Positions 40,025 to 53,208 of a stretch of DNA of 55,522 bases are shown here, one piece after another (the stretch's first letter is position 1; each line of letters begins with the position of its first letter). A program made the translations under genes and the position numbers. Origin of the DNA: Methanospirillum stamsii (GTDB lineage Archaea > Halobacteriota > Methanomicrobia > Methanomicrobiales > Methanospirillaceae); contig NZ_QGMZ01000041.1 of assembly GCF_003173335.1 (NCBI RefSeq), forward strand, positions 1 to 55,522. The letters run 5' to 3'. The notes under the pieces are model-generated. The model worked only from the letters and a program-made list of their open reading frames with translations. It had not been told where the DNA came from and ran no database searches.

Positions 40025-42574
40025 TTATACCGTAGAATTCATGACCGGAACTTTTGCTCCGGTCTGGTATACCCTGAAAATATTCACCGTAGTTCTATTT
40101 TCTCCACCGTCTATGGAAAGAGATCCGGGAATTGATAATAATTTGAATTGTCTCATGTTACCCGAGTCACTCCCAAGGAGAATCTCGTAATAATTATCCG
40201 CCGGAATCTCCTCCTCCGCAGTGATGATAATCTGGTTTACCCGGGGATCATACCGGAGCAAAAGGCCTGGTTCCAAGGGCGATGATATGGCCTGAACAGG
40301 TCTATTCTTCCCGAGAAGAGTTGGAGATGGCGTAACCTTCGTTAATTCAGGTTTTTGAGTTACGAGTGGAGGAGGGGTTGAAGAAGGATTTGGAAGGGTT
40401 TCATAATTGAGTAATCGAACCTCTTCTCCTGCTTTATATTCATGGTAGGGTTTCAATACCTGGGCAAGTCCGGGAACCTGGGTTACTGTGATATGGTCTG
40501 AAATCGGTTTGTACTCAATAACTCCAAAGATAATCAATGCAAAGAGTATGAAGAGAATAGTAAGTCCTAGAGAGAGACCTACCTGGGTTGCTGTAGCATG
40601 CCTGGTTCCCCGGTCAAAATCCGGTGATTTCACTTCAATCCATGTTACCGGACGTGAAAACCGCTCCGGATGTTCAATGATCAATTGTTCCTGAATTACC
40701 TCGGTTCCATGACTTGTCTTCTCCCACTTGTAGGGCTTAAATATTAACTGGAGCGTTCCTTTCCAGGCCCCTATGCTCATCAGAATCCAGTATGCCGGAG
40801 AAAAGAATGCATACAGGAGCAGATCATATTGTTTTTCTTTATAAGTTGCAACCATCATCATACTGAGGAAAAAGAGGTTTCCTATCAGTAAATTAAATAC
40901 CGCAATAGCTGCAAAAGGCCAAAAATTAAACCATCCGGAGAAGTAATTCGGAACAAAAAATGCCGCGATAAAAACCAGCCAGAGAAACAGATTCATTAAG
41001 GGAAGATAGAAGTTCCCCCCAAATCCGGTCTGGAAAATCAGGAAATTCTTAAATCCTATATCTTTAAAAACCCGTATCGGATGCCTCATCGTGACAAACC
41101 AGGTGATAACAAATCCCTTTACCCACCGTGATCGCTGCTTTATCCATGACGGAACCTTTGTAACCGCTTCCTCATAGGTATGGGAGTTTAAAACACCGGT
41201 GTGCAGTTTTTTCCGTGCAATCCGCATCCCTAAGTCGGCATCTTCTGTGACATTGTACGGGTCCCAGGCACCAAGTTCTTTCAGGGTTTTCATCCGGAAA
41301 TGATTGCTGGTCCCGCCGAGTGGGATAGGAGCATCAATTTTATCAAGCCCCTGTATATAAAAGTCATAATAATAAGAATATTCAATGGAGAACCATCTGG
41401 TAAGCAGATTTTTCCGGGCATTATAAAAGTTAAGGAGGCACTGGACACAGGCGTATTTGTCACCAAGACGGTTAAAGGCAATAACGACTTTTTTCAGCTG
41501 GTCACGGTCAGGAAAATCTTCTGCATCATAAATGACAACAAATTCTCCCCTGGACCGCTTTAGTCCATAATTACAGGCACGTGGCTTGGTCTTGATTTCT
41601 GCATTCGGGATGACCACCGGATGAAAAATACTTAAAAATGAATGATATTCGGCCTCTGACATCGGAGATATTATCTCTTCTATATTTCCAAAGAGGCCTA
41701 GTTTTCTTGCCTTATTAAGAGTTTCAGTATCCTCTTCTTCCATGAGGATCTTTACATCCAGTTTGTCCCGTGGATAATTGATATTTGAAATGTTTTGTAA
41801 AATATGGGGAAGCATCTCCTGTTCATGGAACAACGGAACTAATACCGTATATACCGGGAGATCCTCGTCTTTTAATTCTTTTACATCATCATCAGAGATG
41901 TAGATAACTTTTTTTGTACCGGCCAGTCCTTCAAGTGAGATATAAAACTTGATAGGATTCATGACAAAATATGCAATATTTGTGATGGTAAAGAAGACAA
42001 ATAACCAGAAATACGGGTTAGATATGACAAGGACTGCAGCAATCAGTAATCCGATGATGATTGCCGCTTTTTGCCAGGGGAGTAATATCCGGTATGCAGA
42101 TTCGTCCGGCGAACGATTGACCAGTTCACTTAATGCACTGTACGCATGAGGGCCCTGATAACTCACATCAGTAACTGCCAGAACAGCATTGAGAGGAGTG
42201 ACCACTCTCTCTATCTTTTTCCCGAAAAGATCCTCCATTCTTTTAAATAATGGAGTATCAAGTGGATTTGCGGTTGCTATCTTTAAATATGAGGGCTTGG
42301 ATTCAAGCAGGACAATGAACGCCTGGTCTCCGATTGCATAGGGAAGGATGGATCCAACCTGGGGCCGGGTAAGAAGAAAATCCGCTTCCATAAAGGAAAG
42401 CCCCATCCGGTTTGCCAAAAATGCATAAAAATCATCAGGGACAGAAATTCGGAATTTTTTTATTGCAGGAATAATCATTTCAAGAGTGATTTCAGGATCT
42501 TCAAGTAATACGGTATTGGGGACATCCATCTCCTGAAGGGTTTTTATTAATTCATCCTTTGTTATATCACTCAT
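40025..42574 (-). CDS. Family 2 glycosyltransferase with N-terminal T2SSE_N-like domain
   Basis: The N-terminal 150 residues match the GspE/MshE N-terminal fold (LANRMGLSFMEADFLLTRPQ, LKIATANPLDTPLFKRMEDL). Two membrane helices follow, then a processive GT2 domain with VYTVLVPLFHEQEMLP, DAEDFPDRD, TEDADLGMR and the QRSRWVKG motif, then more membrane helices (IFQTGFGGNFYLPLMNLFLW). A proline-rich linker leads to a C-terminal beta domain. It probably polymerises and exports a polysaccharide at the membrane. It is third in the operon kinase-receiver-GT2, 14 bases after the receiver gene. Confidence 0.88.
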   Translation of the reverse strand: MSDITKDELIKTLQEMDVPNTVLLEDPEITLEMIIPAIKKFRISVPDDFYAFLANRMGLSFMEADFLLTRPQVGSILPYAIGDQAFIVLLESKPSYLKIATANPLDTPLFKRMEDLFGKKIERVVTPLNAVLAVTDVSYQGPHAYSALSELVNRSPDESAYRILLPWQKAAIIIGLLIAAVLVISNPYFWLFVFFTITNIAYFVMNPIKFYISLEGLAGTKKVIYISDDDVKELKDEDLPVYTVLVPLFHEQEMLPHILQNISNINYPRDKLDVKILMEEEDTETLNKARKLGLFGNIEEIISPMSEAEYHSFLSIFHPVVIPNAEIKTKPRACNYGLKRSRGEFVVIYDAEDFPDRDQLKKVVIAFNRLGDKYACVQCLLNFYNARKNLLTRWFSIEYSYYYDFYIQGLDKIDAPIPLGGTSNHFRMKTLKELGAWDPYNVTEDADLGMRIARKKLHTGVLNSHTYEEAVTKVPSWIKQRSRWVKGFVITWFVTMRHPIRVFKDIGFKNFLIFQTGFGGNFYLPLMNLFLWLVFIAAFFVPNYFSGWFNFWPFAAIAVFNLLIGNLFFLSMMMVATYKEKQYDLLLYAFFSPAYWILMSIGAWKGTLQLIFKPYKWEKTSHGTEVIQEQLIIEHPERFSRPVTWIEVKSPDFDRGTRHATATQVGLSLGLTILFILFALIIFGVIEYKPISDHITVTQVPGLAQVLKPYHEYKAGEEVRLLNYETLPNPSSTPPPLVTQKPELTKVTPSPTLLGKNRPVQAISSPLEPGLLLRYDPRVNQIIITAEEEIPADNYYEILLGSDSGNMRQFKLLSIPGSLSIDGGENRTTVNIFRVYQTGAKVPVMNSTV

Positions 42575-42588
42575 GATGTGTCACATTC

Positions 42589-43020
42589 TCATTTGAGAGA
42601 GAGTAATCGCTCTTCTAAAAATTCAGCAACCTTCTCACCATCCAACTCTGCTTCCTTCTCCTGTTCGTTAAGTTTTTCCTTGATTTTTTCGATGAGATCC
42701 TTCGGGTTTACTGGTTTCATAAGGTATCCGTCTGCTCCGGCATTTAAAGAAAAGACTGAATTGTCAAGGCTGGCATAACCGGTCACCATGATTTTTTTCA
42801 TACCTGGACGGAGTTTATGGGCTTTTACCAGTAACTCTGTCCCTTCCATATCCGGAAGCTTGATGTCAAATATGGCAAGATGGAAAAAATCATTCTCGAT
42901 TTTTAAAAGTGCCTCTTCGCCCGTCAATGCAGTATCAACTTCATATCCTTCAAGTTCAAGAATTTGTTTTGAACTGTCCAGAATTGCCGGGTCATCATCA
43001 ACATAAAGAATTCTTTTCAT
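42589..43020 (-). CDS. Single-domain response regulator
   Basis: A receiver domain with the acidic pair in LYVDDD, phosphoacceptor Asp52 in FDIKLPDMEG, Thr in MVTGYAS and Lys in LMKPVNPKD; the switch residues are all present. A short coiled-coil tail follows (EKIKEKLNEQEKEAELDGEK). There is no DNA-binding output, so it likely acts on a partner, probably the adjacent GT2 or its kinase. It lies 24 bases after the kinase gene and 14 bases before GT2. Confidence 0.9.
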   Translation of the reverse strand: MKRILYVDDDPAILDSSKQILELEGYEVDTALTGEEALLKIENDFFHLAIFDIKLPDMEGTELLVKAHKLRPGMKKIMVTGYASLDNSVFSLNAGADGYLMKPVNPKDLIEKIKEKLNEQEKEAELDGEKVAEFLEERLLSLK

Positions 43021-43044
43021 TGTTATACTCCCATTATATAATTT

Positions 43045-44217
43045 CTAAACCGGTAAATTTACCTCAAAGGCTGTACCTTTTGAAGATGTTTCTTTTAGAG
43101 ATATTGTTCCTCCCTGTGCTTCAATCAGTCGTTTACAGACAGCAAGACCAAGACCGGTTCCTTTTGGTTTTGTCGTGTAAAGAGGATCAAAAATTCTTGC
43201 CTTTACACCCTCGGGAATACCTATTCCGGTATCTGAAATGAATATACTGATATTATCTGATTTCAAGCCCGCCTTTACGGTCAATACTCCACCTTTCTGC
43301 ATAGCCTGAATTGCATTAGTGATAATATTTTCCATGACTTTCATGAATAATAAGCGATCTACCCTGATCCTGATACCTGATTCAATCTCTTTTATGACTG
43401 TTATTGAATCCGGAGGTGATAATTTGAGAATAAGGTCTTCAAAAAGGGGTTCAAGATTGGTAATCTCTCTCTCAGGAGTAATAACCCGTGAATAATCCTG
43501 CAGGTCTGATATTATCTTGTTCAGGTATAATATTTCTCCCCCAATCCGGTTAAAAATATCACGAATTCCATATTTCATTAAAATTGAATGTTCTTCTGGA
43601 GACATTTTGTTTAAGGCGGAATCCAGAATATATTGCATGTTAGTGATTACCTGAAGTGGATTTCGCATATCATGGCCAATCATCGTTGCAACTTCACCAA
43701 TGACTGCATAACGCTGTGCCTCTTGTAATTGTCTGGTTCTTTCTTCTACTAATTCTTCCAGATGCCGGGTGTATAATTCAAGACGGTTGCGAGTCCGGAA
43801 TAATTCTATTGATTGAGCTATTTTTTGAGATAGTTCATTGAAAATGATGTTGATGTCATTTTTTATAGATGATTCATCGGTTGGATTCTGAGCAAAAGTA
43901 GTTAATATTTCACGGTCACGGTCTGTAATATTAAATAGTTGAAAGGGAATGTTAATGCCAGATTGTTGAAGGTTGAGGTGTAGATTGATGGCATCTGTAT
44001 CATCCAGATCATAGTCAGACAAAATGAGATCAAATGATTCTTTATTGACAATATCTATTGCTTCCCTTCCGGTAGGGCATACATGAACATGAAGGAGACT
44101 GGGCATTTCAAGATATTTTTTAGTTACTGCTCCAATTGGTTTTGAGCTAATAACTAAAAGTATGTGAAATTTTTCCTCATCGGATATTTCGGATAGATAT
44201 TCTGGTATGGACGTCAT
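43045..44217 (-). CDS. Sensor histidine kinase with receiver-like N-terminal domain
   Basis: Residues 15-120 resemble a receiver domain (FHILLVISSKPIGAVTKKYL, ILSDYDLDDTD) but lack the usual Lys segment. A coiled coil (ELYTRHLEELVEERTRQLQE) leads to a HisKA domain (MIGHDMRNPLQVITN, His phosphoacceptor) and HATPase (ENIITNAIQAMQKGG, ISDTGIGIPEGVKARIF, GTGLGLAVCKRLIE). ATGs at 44262 and 44217 are possible; the second is chosen as the domain starts soon after. It is upstream of the receiver and GT2 in one operon, and divergent from the GH26-like gene 81 bases away. Confidence 0.88.
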   Translation of the reverse strand: MTSIPEYLSEISDEEKFHILLVISSKPIGAVTKKYLEMPSLLHVHVCPTGREAIDIVNKESFDLILSDYDLDDTDAINLHLNLQQSGINIPFQLFNITDRDREILTTFAQNPTDESSIKNDINIIFNELSQKIAQSIELFRTRNRLELYTRHLEELVEERTRQLQEAQRYAVIGEVATMIGHDMRNPLQVITNMQYILDSALNKMSPEEHSILMKYGIRDIFNRIGGEILYLNKIISDLQDYSRVITPEREITNLEPLFEDLILKLSPPDSITVIKEIESGIRIRVDRLLFMKVMENIITNAIQAMQKGGVLTVKAGLKSDNISIFISDTGIGIPEGVKARIFDPLYTTKPKGTGLGLAVCKRLIEAQGGTISLKETSSKGTAFEVNLPV

Positions 44218-44298
44218 TATGGTGAACTCATACAGAACCTGCATACTTACATAAACCGGCATCCATATTGTATCTTGGGTATGGTACCATCTTGTTCA

Positions 44299-45384
44299 AT
44301 GAAGAAAAAGCTCATCGTTCATGTTAACTCTAAATCCAGTTTTTTTCATTGTTCCGGGTTGGTTATTTTCTCAATGTTCCTGATTTTTTGTTCCATTACC
44401 GAGGGAAGCATGCAGGAATTATGTATTCCTGGAAATGGCACACTCTGGAATGGTGCTTTTACTCCGGTAGAATATCATATGAATGAGATGGATATTTCTG
44501 ATGAGAGTATCAGTTCATATATTCATCACACCGGCAAACCTCTGGCAATCATATGCTTTTCTCATGAATGGAGTTTAAATCGTAGGTTTCCTGCTGATCA
44601 GGCAAGCACCATTCATTCCTTTGGTGCGATACCCTACATTCGGTTAATGCTCCGGACGGACAATAAACAATACCAGCCTGAGCCTTTTTACACCCTGAAA
44701 CGGATCAGAGACGGTTATTATGATTCAGATTTACGGGCTTTTGCACGAGATGCCCGTGATGTTTCATATCCGATTCTTATTGAATATGGAACTGAAATGA
44801 ATGGGTGGTGGTTTTCCTGGAATGGGTACTGGACCGGAAAGGCGGAAGGAACAGAGTTATTTAAATCAGCCTACAGGCATATTATCGATGTTATGGATGA
44901 GGAAGGGGCGAATAATCTATATTGGGTCTTCCATATGAACTGGCATTCAAATCCTGAAGAATCCTGGAATGCCCCGGATAATTACTACCCTGGTGATGAG
45001 TATATTGATATCGTTGGTGTATCAGTATACGGAGCGCTGACCCGGTTTGAAAACGGAACGCTTTCCTTTTCAGAGATGATGAATATCGGATACAAGGAAG
45101 CGAAAAATATTTCCCCCGCAAAACCGGTTATTCTTTCTGAGATAGGAACTGACTTACATAATTGTAACACTCCTGCATACCCTTGGATTGAGGAGGTATT
45201 TTTATCCCTGGCTAAAAACAGTTGGCCTGACCTTATTGGGTATGTATGGTGGAATGCCGGATGGCCAATAGATTCCAATTACCGTAATAATACCACCATG
45301 CGGATTGAAGAAGACCCTGACATTCAGGTTCTGTTCCGGAAATATCTGGCAAGGGATACAGTTTTGGGAAAAGTCTGTGGATAA
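44299..45384 (+). CDS. Secreted GH26-like glycoside hydrolase (mannanase/exopolysaccharide hydrolase type)
   Basis: A signal segment (FHCSGLVIFSMFLIFCSITE) precedes a TIM-barrel domain with the family marks LIEYGTEMNGWWFSWNG (Glu as acid/base) and VILSEIGTD (Glu as nucleophile), and the aromatic ends DIVGVSVYG and YVWWNAGW. GH26 members usually show HEMNG; here it is TEMNG, so specificity may differ. The start ATG at 44299 is chosen over the upstream TTG. The divergent position next to the kinase-receiver-GT2 operon suggests hydrolysis or trimming of the same polysaccharide. Confidence 0.8.
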   Translation: MKKKLIVHVNSKSSFFHCSGLVIFSMFLIFCSITEGSMQELCIPGNGTLWNGAFTPVEYHMNEMDISDESISSYIHHTGKPLAIICFSHEWSLNRRFPADQASTIHSFGAIPYIRLMLRTDNKQYQPEPFYTLKRIRDGYYDSDLRAFARDARDVSYPILIEYGTEMNGWWFSWNGYWTGKAEGTELFKSAYRHIIDVMDEEGANNLYWVFHMNWHSNPEESWNAPDNYYPGDEYIDIVGVSVYGALTRFENGTLSFSEMMNIGYKEAKNISPAKPVILSEIGTDLHNCNTPAYPWIEEVFLSLAKNSWPDLIGYVWWNAGWPIDSNYRNNTTMRIEEDPDIQVLFRKYLARDTVLGKVCG

Positions 45385-45397
45385 TTTTTTGAATTTA

Positions 45398-47650
45398 TTA
45401 TTTCTGGGATATTCTTCTCCAACTGTCTTTTGGTATAAGCATTTCAAACGTGGCCCCTTTTCCGGGAGTACCACATTCGCGTATTGATATCTTTGTAATG
45501 TCCAGTATTTCCCGGATTAAGAACAATCCCATTCCGGTATTCTTTCCATGGCCTTGTTTAAAAATTAGATTTTTTTCCTCCTCTGAAATACCTGTACCAT
45601 CATCTGCATAAACAATTCGATAATCGTCACCTGATTGCTCCGCTGAAATAGTAATGGCGGATACTTCCTGACCATGCCGGTGTGAATTATCAATAAGGTT
45701 ATACATTACTTTTTCAAACATAGGGTCTACATAGATTTCAATGGGAATTTCCTGAACTGAGAGTTCAAAACCCCTTAGGATGGATTTTATTGATGGTCTG
45801 TTCATAACTTCTCCTATTCTCATCCATACCGGTTTTTGCATACCAAGCTCCTGGTATTCCTTGGTAAAGGTGATGAGGGTTTTGATGTCATTTCCTGCGG
45901 TCAGGATATTTTTAAGATTTTTCTTTTCTGCTTCATCTGTTGTAGTAGCCAAAAGCAGCTCACTATACCCATAGATGACCATGACTTTATTGAGGATGTC
46001 ATGCCTTGTCACACTACTGAGGATTGCCAGTTTATTCTGAGATACTTTAAGTGCTTCATAAGCTCTCATTAATTCCTGCTCAGATTCTTTCCGGTCAGTT
46101 ATATCAAACACATAATTCGTGACACCAATGATGGAAAGATCTTTGTCATAAACCGGCACAAAAATACTTGAAATCCAGGTACTATGATCCCTGGATTGAA
46201 AATGCATCTCAAGGTCAGGTGCTACAATTTTTTCTCCGGCAACGGCTTTGGAAAAATAAGGATATGTTCCGTTTTTATCTAAATGAGGGAAAAATTCAAA
46301 GACAACTTTTCCTTTCATTGGTTCAAACTTTAATCCGAAAATGCGTTCCATTTCAGGGTTGTAAAACAAAACCCGGGCATCTTTATCGAGCACCATGATT
46401 CCAATATTCGCTGAGTTAACAATTGTTTTGATGAACTCTTCACTATCCTCAATTTTTTTCCGGCTCGTAATGAGTTCCTGATTTGAAGCCTGAAGCTTCA
46501 GAGTTAAGGTAAGAAGGTCCTCGTTATTATCTCTCAGTTTGTCATTTGCATCTTCTAATTCCCTTTTTATTTTCTGAATCTCACCCCATAACCGGGAGTT
46601 GTTTATGGCAAGACCAAGGAAGGAGGTCATGGAAAGGGTTAGGTTAAGGTATTCTCGTATCCTGTCCGGAACTGAAACCCCAAATATGCCTAAAACGCCG
46701 AGAATCATTTTTTTATGTCGGATGGAAATGATAAATCCGTGATTATCGTCAAGGAGGTAATAATCTCTTTCTAATCCGATGAAGAGTAATTCAGATGATG
46801 GGACACTCCCGCCGGGAGGAAAAATACGAATCTCTTCTGGCCCTGATGATGTATACGGAAGGTACTCAATTTTTTCAGGTGCAAAAAGTGATTGAAACAT
46901 GATAAAAATACGGGATATGACCTCAGATTCTTCATTTACTGAAGCAACCTCACTGATAAGTGAAATTACGGCCATCTGAGTAGCATAGGATTGAAGCGGA
47001 GATTGATTACGTATTTCATCCAAATCATTGATCTGTTTTATTCTCCAATTGCATATCTCAGTTTTTACAATCGCTGTGAGGTAAGATGTGCCTGTTTTAA
47101 GAGTAGTAACTGGAAGTCCGGTAAATTTCTCAAATGATCTGATGATATCCTCAGAAACGGCGATAAGACCGGTATCTAAAAGGATAATTCCACGCAAACT
47201 CGAAGAAAAAAAGGTCGTGGGGACTGAGGGATTAAGCCCCATTTCGGTTACATATCGTTCCCAGTTTAAAAGCCACCCGGGAAAGATAACATAATTTCCC
47301 TTTGACGCTAAATCTTGAATCAATTCAATTGGAGCGACCAGTGCATGGCAGGTATCCGGACCGACAGAGGTAATATTTGTTGGAAGAATGTCTCTTTTGG
47401 AAAGGGATTTATCGCCAAACAATAATCCGGATTTTTCAGGATGCATATGTTCAGAGAAAAATGTCTCAACATGCTCATTTTTGAATTTTCCTGCTGTACA
47501 GTAATGCGGGTAAAAAAACAGTCTTGTTCCTTTTGGGGCAGAAAGGTTGTGAAAAATATGTGTGATCTCTTCTTTTAGTGTCTCACAGAAAAAAAGACAG
47601 AGTTCACCGTGTTTTGCACTAGACAGAGATTGGATACCTCCCATATTCAT
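45398..47650 (-). CDS. Sensor histidine kinase with DUF1638-like, GAF and PAS domains
   Basis: The N-terminal 225 residues resemble DUF1638 (ELCLFFCETLKEEI, FFYPHYCTAGKFKNE, YVIFPGWLLNWERYV, IILLDTGLIAV), a domain of methyltransferase loci in methanogens. A GAF-like region (about 230-370), a coiled coil and a PAS domain (FIKTIVNSANIGIMVLDKDA) follow, then a HisKA-type region with TRHDILNKVMVIYGYSEL and HATPase (NLIDNSHRHGQ, ADDGTGISEEEK, GMGLFLIREI). The start is near 47650, inside the end of the UroD gene, so translation is coupled. No receiver is adjacent. It could sense a methylated corrinoid or substrate; this is inferred. Confidence 0.78.
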   Translation of the reverse strand: MNMGGIQSLSSAKHGELCLFFCETLKEEITHIFHNLSAPKGTRLFFYPHYCTAGKFKNEHVETFFSEHMHPEKSGLLFGDKSLSKRDILPTNITSVGPDTCHALVAPIELIQDLASKGNYVIFPGWLLNWERYVTEMGLNPSVPTTFFSSSLRGIILLDTGLIAVSEDIIRSFEKFTGLPVTTLKTGTSYLTAIVKTEICNWRIKQINDLDEIRNQSPLQSYATQMAVISLISEVASVNEESEVISRIFIMFQSLFAPEKIEYLPYTSSGPEEIRIFPPGGSVPSSELLFIGLERDYYLLDDNHGFIISIRHKKMILGVLGIFGVSVPDRIREYLNLTLSMTSFLGLAINNSRLWGEIQKIKRELEDANDKLRDNNEDLLTLTLKLQASNQELITSRKKIEDSEEFIKTIVNSANIGIMVLDKDARVLFYNPEMERIFGLKFEPMKGKVVFEFFPHLDKNGTYPYFSKAVAGEKIVAPDLEMHFQSRDHSTWISSIFVPVYDKDLSIIGVTNYVFDITDRKESEQELMRAYEALKVSQNKLAILSSVTRHDILNKVMVIYGYSELLLATTTDEAEKKNLKNILTAGNDIKTLITFTKEYQELGMQKPVWMRIGEVMNRPSIKSILRGFELSVQEIPIEIYVDPMFEKVMYNLIDNSHRHGQEVSAITISAEQSGDDYRIVYADDGTGISEEEKNLIFKQGHGKNTGMGLFLIREILDITKISIRECGTPGKGATFEMLIPKDSWRRISQK

Positions 47651-48659
47651 ATACGGCATCACGGATTGCAAAGAGAACTTCATCAGGAACCTGTAATGGA
47701 ATTTCTCCGTGATTATCACTCAAAATGAAACCTCCACCAGGGGCTGCATCAGATATTACCTGTTTTACTATTGAAAAAGTTTTTTCCCGAGTCCAGTGTC
47801 TCATCTCTATGCCGTTGAGGTTCCCAATGACCGTAGCTTTTCCGGCACATTTTTGCTTAATCTCGGATAATTTTTCATGTCCACCGCCCCAGACGGCAAC
47901 ACCCACCGTTCCTGTGGAAAGGACATTGTCAAGAATCGGAAGAACACTGGCTGATGCAAACCCCGTCACTACTGGCCCTGGCACTTTGGGAATTAACTCT
48001 TTTGCAATTTTAAGTCCTGTTTTCCGGTATAGTTCCGGGGGGATGATGGTTGGAGATGAGACCGGATCATAATAGATAATTCCACTCGCTCCCGCCTCTA
48101 TCTGAGCAGTTGCCCAGTCCATGAAAAAGCGTTTGTTTACTTCAATGAGCCGGTTAAATCGGATTTCATCTGAATATATGAGGCGGATGTAATCTTCAAA
48201 TCCCATCTGCATGACCGGGAGTGAAAGAGGGGATATAGCAACACCAAAAATGGGAGCATCATCCGGAGCATCTTTTTTCAGGGTCTTAATCATATCCAGC
48301 ACTACCTGAAGGCATTCTGTCTCTTCTACTACCGGAGCGGTAAGGGTGTCTATTTCATCTCCGGTTCTGATTATCGGCCTTCCGCTATTTGGTGGCCCGT
48401 CTTCCCTGAAAATTACCTCTCCCCCAAATGCTTCGTATTCCACCGGGGAATAATGAAATCCGATATACGCATCAGTACCGAATTTTTCACGGGTTGCAAT
48501 GAGGCCCTGGGCAACAAGTTCTGAAGATGTAAAATATTTTTTTAAGGGTATGCCCATGTCTCTGGCGGGATGCATGGTAGGATTGAGAATGAGTGGAACC
48601 CTGTCTGGTTCTTTATGACTAATTGTTGTTAGAATCCTCTCTAATGAACTCATTGTCAT
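47619..48659 (-). CDS. UroD/MtaA-family corrinoid methyltransferase
   Basis: A UroD fold of 346 residues (ERILTTISHKEPDRVPLILN, SPVEYEAFGGEVIF, ASVLPILDNVLSTGTVGVAV, NGIEMRHWTREKTF). MtaA/MtbA enzymes move methyl groups from a corrinoid protein to coenzyme M and bind zinc with a His-x-Cys; the place where it is expected reads TGFASASVLPILDNV, without those ligands, and a later SDNHGEIP holds His. It may use other ligands or another acceptor. The ATG overlaps the corrinoid gene (ATGA), so they are a pair. The sensor kinase gene starts within its 3' end. Confidence 0.88.
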   Translation of the reverse strand: MTMSSLERILTTISHKEPDRVPLILNPTMHPARDMGIPLKKYFTSSELVAQGLIATREKFGTDAYIGFHYSPVEYEAFGGEVIFREDGPPNSGRPIIRTGDEIDTLTAPVVEETECLQVVLDMIKTLKKDAPDDAPIFGVAISPLSLPVMQMGFEDYIRLIYSDEIRFNRLIEVNKRFFMDWATAQIEAGASGIIYYDPVSSPTIIPPELYRKTGLKIAKELIPKVPGPVVTGFASASVLPILDNVLSTGTVGVAVWGGGHEKLSEIKQKCAGKATVIGNLNGIEMRHWTREKTFSIVKQVISDAAPGGGFILSDNHGEIPLQVPDEVLFAIRDAVYEYGRYPISV

Positions 48660-49294
48660 GATGTACCCTCCATCTCCCTAAGGGCAGTGATTGCATCCGA
48701 TGCGGTAAAACAAACACGGTCTGCACCTACTTCTTTTCCAAGGTCCGGATCAAACCTGAATGGTGCTCCTCCCACGATGATTTTCACGCCCTCATTTGAG
48801 ATCTGATCTGATATTTCCCGGATCTTCAACGCTGACGGGAGCATCAGGGTGGATATAAAAAGATATTTAATTTCGTCCTTTTGAATGAGGGGAAGTAATT
48901 CAGCAGCATCTCTCCTTCCATATCGTATTGGGGAATATCCGGCACCTATCAGGTATGCTGCCACAATCCGCTCTCCAAGCATGTGATAATCCTCGAGAAC
49001 AACCGTGGCGATTTTGGATTTTTTACTACTATCATATTCATTATATGGATATAATGCCGTAATTGCTTCCTCGATAAGGACTCCAGCCATATATACCTGT
49101 GATATGGCAAGGGTTCCTTCTTCCCACCTTCTCCCGATCTCTTCTAAAGCAGGAACTACTATGGAATCAATAATGTAAAGTTTTTCAGCATTTTCATGGG
49201 GTGTAGATAGTATTTCCCTGACAGCAAGTCTATCCATGTTCAACAAAGCAGAGATAAGATCGTCGATCTTTTTTTGGGAAAAATCTGCTGTCAT
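48656..49294 (-). CDS. Methyltransferase-cognate corrinoid (B12-binding) protein
   Basis: A helical N-terminal cap (DLISALLNMDRLAVREILST) precedes the B12-binding Rossmann domain. The cobalt-ligand loop is DxHxxG, seen in LEDYHMLGERI, with the later SLGGAPF-type segment as IIVGGAPFRFDPD. It carries a methyl group between a substrate methyltransferase and the UroD-type partner. No substrate-specific MtxB gene is in the window, so the methyl donor is unknown. It is first in the operon: corrinoid, UroD, DUF1638-kinase. 163 AT-rich bases separate it from the MFS gene. Confidence 0.93.
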   Translation of the reverse strand: MTADFSQKKIDDLISALLNMDRLAVREILSTPHENAEKLYIIDSIVVPALEEIGRRWEEGTLAISQVYMAGVLIEEAITALYPYNEYDSSKKSKIATVVLEDYHMLGERIVAAYLIGAGYSPIRYGRRDAAELLPLIQKDEIKYLFISTLMLPSALKIREISDQISNEGVKIIVGGAPFRFDPDLGKEVGADRVCFTASDAITALREMEGTS

Positions 49295-49457
49295 AAATAA
49301 CCTCCTTTTGTATTTTGTAGAAAATATATGTTTCTAGGAGATCAGAATGAAAAACCACATTCGATTTATGAATATTCGTAATAGAAAAGTTTTCTAAATC
49401 ATTCTTTTATTTTAACTGGGGGTTGATGTTAATCAGGTTCAGGTCAGGATTTTTTTC

Positions 49458-51444: not shown

Positions 51445-52272
51445 ATGAAATGGTTTTCTATTGGAGTTCTTATCTGTTTGGTTTTTCTGACAATGCAGGG
51501 TGTTCTGGCTGAATCGCTCTTTTCCTTTGACCAGGAAATAAAGCCGGACCTATATGTAACTGATGATCTAATCTCCCGTGCAGGGACAATTAATATTCCT
51601 GCAGGACTTGGAATTCTTACGACAAATGAAATTATCCAGCCATATTGGGCACCAGCCCATGATGTTCTTCCTATCCGGATGGATTTTTCTCCGGTAAATC
51701 AGAAAGGACCTATTGCTGATCTTTCAATTGTCGGAATTGATATGTACCAATTTGGAAATGAGGTAAAAAATATATTTTCTTTTTCAAATGGTGTTCCATT
51801 GAATATCGTAACCACGTATTTTGTCAACAGCTCAGAAACAATCCCTTATTATCTTTTTCTTCGCAATACGCTGGATAAAGGGGATACGATTCATGATTTT
51901 AATTATGTCTATTCAGCAGAATATGAACCGATATCGTATAACCAAACTGCTTACCAGTCAGGAAATCCATCAGGCAACTATCATACCAGTATGGGAGCTA
52001 TCAATCTGACCTTTTCTAAAAAACCTGACTGGTTGCCATATCTAAATGGGACATTTTCTGATGGCTATATTATTGGCGGAACAGTAAACGGTCCGGTCTG
52101 GTTTGGTTCCTGGGGCCCGGATGATGCAACTTTTGATCGTGATCCTTCAAAGGCTCTCTCTGGATCATTTATGGTAGTGTTTAATGAAGACTGGTCATCT
52201 TTTTCCGGGACGAAAGGAAACTGGCAGAGCAGCTCTAATGCCGGGAAATTTACCGGTGAAAAAGGAACGTAA
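51445..52272 (+). CDS. Secreted hypothetical protein, paralogue A
   Basis: A signal peptide (FSIGVLICLVFLTMQGVLAE) precedes a mature part that is nearly parallel to the next gene (SFDQEIKPDLYVTDDLISRA, LGILTTNEIIQPYWAPAHDV, VVFNEDWSSFSGTKGNWQSS). It is beta-rich, Asn/Thr-rich with possible N-glycosylation sites, and lacks a membrane anchor at the end. It is 275 aa. The family is unknown to me; it looks like a secreted or surface beta-sandwich protein. CCGGAG lies before the ATG. The same inverted repeat precedes both paralogues. Confidence 0.8.
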   Translation: MKWFSIGVLICLVFLTMQGVLAESLFSFDQEIKPDLYVTDDLISRAGTINIPAGLGILTTNEIIQPYWAPAHDVLPIRMDFSPVNQKGPIADLSIVGIDMYQFGNEVKNIFSFSNGVPLNIVTTYFVNSSETIPYYLFLRNTLDKGDTIHDFNYVYSAEYEPISYNQTAYQSGNPSGNYHTSMGAINLTFSKKPDWLPYLNGTFSDGYIIGGTVNGPVWFGSWGPDDATFDRDPSKALSGSFMVVFNEDWSSFSGTKGNWQSSSNAGKFTGEKGT

Positions 52273-52383: not shown

Positions 52384-53208
52384 ATGAAAAGGTATACTAT
52401 TGCACTTTTTTTCTTTCTGGTTTTTCTGATGATGCAGGGAGTTCTCGCTGAATCTTTGATCTCCTTTAACCAGGCTGTAAAACCCAACCCTTATGCAACT
52501 GATGATCTCATTTCCCGTGCAGGGACCATGAATATCCCCGCAGGACTTGGAATACTAACAACAAATGAGATTATCCAGCCATTCTGGACTCCGAAGGGAG
52601 ATATTCTTCCTATCCGGGTGGAATTTTCTCCAGTCGATGTGAATGGACCGGTTGCAGACATTGAAATGATCGGGACACAATTTTACCAGTTTGGAAATGA
52701 AGTAAAGGATTTAAGTTTTTCAAACGGAGTTCCCTTGAACATGGTGATGAAGTACTTCATTAACAGTTCTGTACAAATCCCGTATTATGTTATTCTCCGT
52801 AATTCCTTGGATAAGGGAGACTCAATTCAAAATTATAATCTGGTTTATTCAGCCGAATATGAGCCTTTAAATCTCAATCTTTCGGCCTACCTGACCGGAT
52901 ATCCCATTGGTAATTACAAAACCAGTATGGGAGAGCTCAATCTGACAACTCCTGAAAAAATGGGTTTGTATCAGGATCTGAAGGGGACTTTAACTGATGA
53001 TATTACTATAGATGGAACATTAAACGGCCCGGTCTGGTTTGGTTCCTGGTCTTCAAACTGGTCTGTTATTGAGAAGGATCCCTCTAAAGCAGTCGGCGGA
53101 CAGTTCATGGTCATATTTAATGAAGACTGGTCATCATTTTCAGGAACCAGGGGGAATCAGCATAGTTGTTCGAATGCCGGGAAATTCACCGGAGAAATGG
53201 TAACCTAA
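52384..53208 (+). CDS. Secreted hypothetical protein, paralogue B
   Basis: A tandem copy of the previous gene: signal peptide (TIALFFFLVFLMMQGVLAES), then NQAVKPNPYATDDLISRAGT, the conserved LGILTTNEIIQPFW, and VIFNEDWSSFSGTRGNQHSC. It is 274 aa. Differences from paralogue A spread over the whole length but spare the core blocks, so both copies are under selection. It has the CCGGAG ribosome site and its own copy of the inverted repeat, so each copy may be transcribed separately. Confidence 0.8.
   Translation: MKRYTIALFFFLVFLMMQGVLAESLISFNQAVKPNPYATDDLISRAGTMNIPAGLGILTTNEIIQPFWTPKGDILPIRVEFSPVDVNGPVADIEMIGTQFYQFGNEVKDLSFSNGVPLNMVMKYFINSSVQIPYYVILRNSLDKGDSIQNYNLVYSAEYEPLNLNLSAYLTGYPIGNYKTSMGELNLTTPEKMGLYQDLKGTLTDDITIDGTLNGPVWFGSWSSNWSVIEKDPSKAVGGQFMVIFNEDWSSFSGTRGNQHSCSNAGKFTGEMVT

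Follow-up and report, generated by a model that had tools for sequence, protein, structure and literature searches.

A corrinoid protein, a UroD-type protein and a DUF1638-bearing sensor kinase form a recurrent gene cassette and a candidate sensory module in Methanospirillum stamsii

We analyzed a 55,522-nucleotide stretch (hereafter the window) of the genome of the methanogen Methanospirillum stamsii (order Methanomicrobiales), a 3.7 Mb draft in 89 contigs that is estimated to be 99.9% complete. Three overlapping genes on its minus strand encode a corrinoid protein, a protein of the UroD superfamily, and a multidomain sensor kinase with an N-terminal DUF1638 domain. The trio recurs as a cassette in archaea and bacteria, and we weigh here whether it is a sensory module. 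Its features are as follows:

48656..49294, minus strand: corrinoid protein, open reading frame (ORF) of 212 amino acids (ORF list), with a B12-binding_2 cap and a B12-binding domain (Pfam)
47619..48659, minus strand: UroD-superfamily protein, ORF of 346 amino acids (PF01208), of a sensor-associated subfamily
45398-47719, minus strand: kinase open frame, 773 amino acids from GTG 47719 (ORF list)
45398..47644, minus strand: DUF1638-GAF-PAS-HisKA-HATPase sensor kinase, 748 amino acids from ATG 47644
47045..47617, minus strand: DUF1638 domain of the kinase (Pfam matches of relatives, hhalign, cysteines; AlphaFold mean predicted local distance difference test, pLDDT, 93.3)
46670..46939, minus strand: GAF domain, reached via a long helix (AlphaFold and Foldseek matches to GAF domains)
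46070..46435, minus strand: PAS domain (PAS_4, 1.1e-15)
45410..46015, minus strand: HisKA-like part (TRHDILNK) and HATPase_c (HATPase_c 1.5e-13; HisKA 0.009, below cut-off)
49301..49330, minus strand: putative operon leader, read directly, with AGGAGG at 49306-49301 and an AT-rich, TATA-like stretch at 49330-49321

The three overlapping minus-strand genes reported by an initial annotation, which was made by a model from the sequence alone, agree with the ORF coordinates and with the ATGA overlap of the corrinoid and UroD genes that we read in the window sequence. A 4-nucleotide overlap is also found in 40 corrinoid-UroD pairs of the 80-locus set described below. Alignment with relatives makes ATG 47644 a likelier kinase start than GTG 47719; from this ATG, the kinase and UroD genes overlap by 26 nucleotides. 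The operon ends with the kinase, since the next gene (44275-45384) lies on the opposite strand, and scans for bacterial-type promoters and terminators gave matches only at chance numbers. The proposed fusion of DUF1638 to GAF, PAS and HisKA/HATPase parts also held: Pfam accounts for the PAS, HisKA and HATPase_c parts, while the GAF part is not recognized by Pfam and is supported by AlphaFold and Foldseek. In the AlphaFold model of the N-terminal region (pLDDT 90), an alpha/beta domain leads through a long helix to the GAF domain and then to a second long helix. The N, G1 and G2 boxes of HATPase_c are visible as DNSHRHG, DDGTGIS and NTGMGL.

The initial annotation had called for a survey of genomes for the same fusion and neighbors, and both recur. 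Within the order, a profile of the kinase N-terminal domain matched in 30 of 232 genomes, always within long frames of 494-966 amino acids. UroD lies directly upstream of the kinase in 28 of these 30 genomes and the corrinoid gene is also present in 27. The overlap of these 28 with the 29 genomes in which UroD scores 1e-73 or better has a hypergeometric P of ~1e-32, uncorrected for shared descent. We also scanned named genomes with the UroD alignment, which gave 277 relatives, and read neighborhoods from the best 80 loci, mostly in metagenome-assembled genomes (MAGs). As these loci were picked by UroD similarity, the recurrence described here covers this UroD subfamily and not all UroDs. They span Thermodesulfobacteriota, Bacteroidota, Nitrospirota, Bacillota, Chloroflexota, Pseudomonadota, Spirochaetota, Cloacimonadota, Riflebacteria, Methanobacteriota and others, such that a dozen phyla or more, bacterial and archaeal, contain the subfamily; among the named genomes, the nearest relative of the window UroD belongs to a Methanospirillum MAG (L104). 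Two of the 80 loci end at a contig edge. In the 78 informative loci, the next gene is invariably a sensor, with DUF1638 and GAF parts in 65 and a GAF part only in 13. Outside the cassette, any given gene family turns up in at most 4 of the 80 neighborhoods. In addition, the four parts (UroD, corrinoid protein, DUF1638 and GAF) co-vary in divergence, with r of 0.57-0.74 vs at most 0.26 in permutations. GAF-first genes without DUF1638 follow UroD at L106, L110, L118, L127, L132, L137, L145, L147, L150, L154, L159, L164 and L176; in Desulfamplus (L132, L145 and L147), a kinase gene instead immediately precedes the corrinoid gene.

The identity of the kinase N-terminus as a DUF1638 domain, which the initial annotation had proposed, is confirmed by sequence comparison. 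The window kinase matches PF07796 weakly (E 0.0071; 16.7 bits against a curated cut-off of 27), and this direct match alone proves little; what settles the identity are its relatives and profile-profile alignment. We collected 57 full-length family members, archaeal and bacterial, counting the window kinase among them; 55 match PF07796 at E<=0.01 (best 1.9e-14), and several cassette relatives pass the curated cut-off (38-48 bits) along with HisKA/HATPase, receiver or GGDEF domains. A search with the N-terminal domain found matches in 11 of 61 genomes of relatives and, in one of the 30 kinase-bearing genomes of the order (G195), PF07796 itself matches inside the kinase locus (2.6e-5). Alignment by hhalign of the family profile with short stand-alone DUF1638 proteins gave a probability of 99.4% (E 1.8e-21, 177 columns), compared to 2.7% at most for column-shuffled and unrelated controls; an earlier run with a shallow, Methanosarcinaceae-only DUF1638 set gave 35-59%, and deeper, more diverse sets raised this to 99.4%. 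A profile match to DUF1638 and a recurring neighborhood, on whose joint absence the initial annotation had agreed to fall, were thus both found.

The DUF1638 family contains four near-invariant cysteines together with PGW..W and DTG motifs. The window domain contains PxW..W and DTG motifs and three cysteines (Cys20, Cys49 and Cys99, numbered from ATG 47644), with Ser80 in place of the fourth. The family cysteines, four in all, may constitute a metal site. In Methanosarcinaceae L172 and L179, the conserved cysteines are partly lost, and different archaeal lineages lack different ones. A PDB sequence search with the kinase N-terminal domain gave no match; the sole PDB match of the DUF1638 profile, a saposin (E>0.02), was taken as chance. 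A Foldseek search with the domain alone returned no convincing match or solved relative; with template-modelling scores of 0.40 at most, we assign it no function by fold.

Sensor outputs vary across the family. Among its 57 members, we found HATPase_c in 44, HisKA in 34, GGDEF in 10 and receiver domains in nine, corresponding to histidine kinases, hybrid kinases and GGDEF cyclases, and the GG(D/E)EF motif is intact in all 10 GGDEF members. On the UroD tree, output type switched at least three times and the presence of DUF1638 changed five times. In the L131 and L167 sensors, a short Cys-rich tail (PICASCNKIRDD and PICSYCKKIRND, respectively) replaces the kinase or cyclase.

The module also occurs unfused, in MAGs of Bacteroidota, Desulfuromonadales and Hyphomicrobiales (L233, L234 and L182). 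In L233 (1-3558) and L234 (3-3242), a stand-alone DUF1638 gene (E 7e-25 and 8e-23, respectively) lies between a more distant corrinoid-UroD pair and a separate sensor gene, which encodes GAF-HisKA-HATPase in L234 and PAS repeats in the stretch read of L233. In L182 (183-5259), a CmuA-like corrinoid-UroD fusion is followed by a stand-alone DUF1638 and a hybrid kinase, and a second set is also present. These unfused sets speak for a functional partnership between DUF1638 and the pair and against a chance fusion. No stand-alone DUF1638 was detected in the M. stamsii genome by a whole-genome PF07796 scan at E<=1, which did not match the kinase itself either. The initial annotation further placed DUF1638 in methyltransferase loci of methanogens, but the sampled stand-alone copies did not bear this out: a corrinoid ORF lay within 1.5 kb in none of 52 loci, a count limited by short flanks and a cassette-derived model. 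A stand-alone DUF1638 in a Syntrophomonadaceae MAG (L235; 1426-2079 and 2910-3578) lies near a gene with an HxC-containing, core-MetE-like stretch, on which Pfam gave no match.

The corrinoid protein has the features of a methyltransferase corrinoid protein. It matches both PF02607 (B12-binding_2, 2e-10) and PF02310 (B12-binding, 2.4e-11), its closest PDB relatives are methyltransferase corrinoid proteins, and its DxHxxG cobalamin motif, which reads EDYHMLG, is kept in 79 of 79 cassette homologues. We found no other PF02607 protein in the M. stamsii genome, nor the RamA reactivase (PF14574). For this draft genome, such a gene content is evidence against a standard methylotrophic pathway.

The UroD protein matches PF01208 at 3.5e-46. 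When aligned to MtaA (4ay7), whose zinc ligands we take to be His237, Cys239 and Cys316, it lacks the His-Cys-Cys zinc site. Across 92 UroD homologues, the positions of the zinc cysteines are occupied by Ala/Ser and an invariant His, no HxC zinc motif is present, and a DNHGEIP motif is conserved; 81 of them, though not the window UroD, have a His near the first zinc-ligand position. Against TIGR01463, the window protein scores 88.3 bits and does not reach the curated cut-off of 235.4. Given the absent zinc site, we reject an identity as an MtaA/CmuA-type coenzyme M (S-) methyltransferase. The O-demethylase zinc motif E-x14-E-x20-H was sought by eye in UroD and not seen. In the UroD superfamily, His-Cys-Cys marks S-methyltransferases, while one or both cysteines are replaced in O-methyltransferases (PMC10418091). 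By this standard, thiol chemistry by the cassette UroD appears unlikely, because His-Cys-Cys is absent, and oxygen donors or no catalysis remain. The cassette UroD is present as one copy per genome in the order, where scores drop from 1e-73 or better to 1e-40 for other UroDs. It is also the best-conserved part of the cassette, with a mean identity over 55 loci of 61%, compared to 47% for the corrinoid protein and 29% each for DUF1638 and GAF. This high conservation suggests a common ligand.

We consider it reasonably probable that the three genes encode a dedicated sensory module, in which the corrinoid and UroD proteins provide a chemical input that DUF1638-GAF relays to exchangeable outputs. 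The corrinoid protein would carry a cobamide, over which the UroD-type protein would hold or process a ligand. This ligand would probably be a methyl donor bound via oxygen or another hard atom, given that the thiol-binding zinc site of UroD is gone. Together, the two proteins would set the corrinoid state (methylated, Co(I) or Co(II)), and the DUF1638 domain of the kinase would dock on the pair and read that state. From there, the long helix and the GAF and PAS domains would transmit the change to the histidine kinase, and the same input would drive a hybrid kinase or diguanylate cyclase in other lineages. The anatomy of the proteins makes direct reading of the methyl-corrinoid state by the kinase the most economical inference. 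In this model, we also infer the contact between the proteins, the signal (a methyl donor, the cobalt redox state or light), the response direction and the downstream regulator. An association of DUF1638 with corrinoid proteins has experimental support elsewhere, since the split corrinoid-dependent methionine synthase of Phaeobacter needs DUF1638 together with a RamA-like protein, according to bacterial fitness data (PMC5764234). A DUF1638-GAF-output fusion encoded with its own corrinoid-UroD pair is most simply read as a receptor, in which the pair would turn a methyl donor or a redox condition into a corrinoid state for DUF1638 to read and the output to report. More tentatively, and with slightly less than even confidence, we extend this to a general prokaryotic receptor for methyl-corrinoid sensing in at least a dozen phyla, in which a corrinoid protein and a repurposed UroD form the input and DUF1638 reads it out to kinases and cyclic di-GMP (c-di-GMP) cyclases.

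Several observations weigh against the sensory-module model. The DUF1638 part is absent and the GAF part retained in 13 of the 78 informative loci, and DUF1638 therefore cannot be the sole contact. Any DUF1638 metal site would not be universal, because the window domain has three cysteines and those of Methanosarcinaceae have fewer. Two kinases of the order (L075 and L079) have no UroD within the flank fetched, and the operon in the window has no cognate response regulator next to it.

Other explanations were weighed against the same data. The corrinoid and UroD proteins might be a working metabolic methyltransferase (e.g., an O-demethylase), with the kinase merely regulating genes in response to something else. 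The strong conservation of UroD among phyla is what a catalyst would show, and UroD-superfamily O-methyltransferases do replace one or both zinc cysteines (PMC10418091). Kinases are also known beside corrinoid methyltransferases, namely MecA, with its PocR domain, in the mec cassette (PMC9768040) and MsmS/RdmS (PMC6944256). However, we consider this explanation unlikely: the pair never occurs without a sensor in the 78 informative loci, neither another methyltransferase family nor RamA is a recurrent neighbor, the M. stamsii genome has no detected RamA or other PF02607 corrinoid protein, and the pair remains constant across different output types.

Less probable still, DUF1638 could be a corrinoid maintenance or reactivation domain that chiefly repairs inactive Co(II), with the kinase fusion coupling reactivation to signaling. 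The four conserved cysteines of the family would suit such a role, DUF1638 and a RamA-like protein co-occur with split MetH and are both required (PMC5764234), and DUF1638 is grouped with cobalamin recharging in PMC12478193. Yet part of the cysteine set is missing from the window's domain and other archaeal copies, the pair occurs without DUF1638 in 13 loci, and GGDEF outputs are left unexplained. Cobamides are photolabile and redox-active, and the module could sense light or oxygen/redox through the cobamide itself by CarH-like chemistry, with UroD as scaffold or pseudoenzyme. A weak match of the corrinoid protein to CarH and the lack of a thiol-type zinc site in UroD fit this account, but a scaffold would hardly need to be the best-conserved part, with many invariant residues, and we regard it as very improbable.

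Other genes lie near the cassette. Another kinase (42589-44262), whose N-terminus is weakly receiver-like, is encoded beside a receiver-only response regulator, and this system is a possible unlinked partner for the orphan cassette kinase. The window also encodes a glycosyltransferase family 2 protein with a weak MshEN-like domain at its N-terminus (40025-42574) and tandem paralogous, secreted-looking proteins (51445-52272 and 52384-53208); a further genome from this genus also has a relative of them close to its cassette (L012, 10239-11069). In a related genome (L013, 1758-5053), a large chemotaxis-receptor-like protein and a CheW-like gene, judged by eye, lie directly upstream of the cassette.

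If the sensory-module reading is true, two-component and c-di-GMP signaling would share a widespread cofactor-based input rather than a simple ligand pocket, and a role would be suggested for DUF1638. It would also explain the presence of UroD and corrinoid genes in a methanogen in whose genome we detected no further corrinoid protein of this type, and it predicts testable spectral and kinase responses. In turn, UroD-corrinoid pairs in metagenomes should not be taken for methylotrophy.

The open literature, to which our search was confined (subscription literature was not covered), held no description of a corrinoid-UroD-sensor module or of a DUF1638-kinase fusion, in keeping with the initial annotation's remark that it knew of no such kinase; the DUF1638 papers PMC5764234 and PMC12478193 concern metabolism, not kinases. 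There is a fair chance that the module is a distinct receptor class, in which a new input serves sensor kinases and cyclases. Among known systems, MsmS/RdmS of Methanosarcina are likewise multidomain kinases with GAF/PAS parts that are associated with the genes of corrinoid methyltransferases in methanogens (PMC6944256, PMC11784639), but these lack an H-box and sense through heme or thiols, whereas the window kinase keeps the H-box-like TRHDILNK; they also have no reported DUF1638 and no dedicated corrinoid/UroD input pair. Phaeobacter PGA1_c13340 belongs to the DUF1638 family and is functionally linked to a corrinoid protein (PMC5764234); in contrast, it is a stand-alone protein in a metabolic context, beside a split methionine synthase and without a signaling output. 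Type 1 mlp clusters similarly combine widespread UroD-superfamily proteins with a corrinoid protein (PMC10418091), but contain several Mlps with His-Cys-Cys and a RamA-type activase, with no sensor described, whereas the window has one UroD and PF14574 was not found. In the mec cassette, the kinase MecA is encoded beside corrinoid MecB and UroD genes (PMC9768040), but uses a PocR domain and accompanies a complete catabolic set. Finally, MtaA/MtbA with MtaC/MtbC also pair a URO-D fold with a two-domain corrinoid protein; the cassette pair differs in that it lacks His-Cys-Cys, falls well short of the curated MtaA/CmuA and corrinoid models in score, and is accompanied by a sensor in every informative locus.

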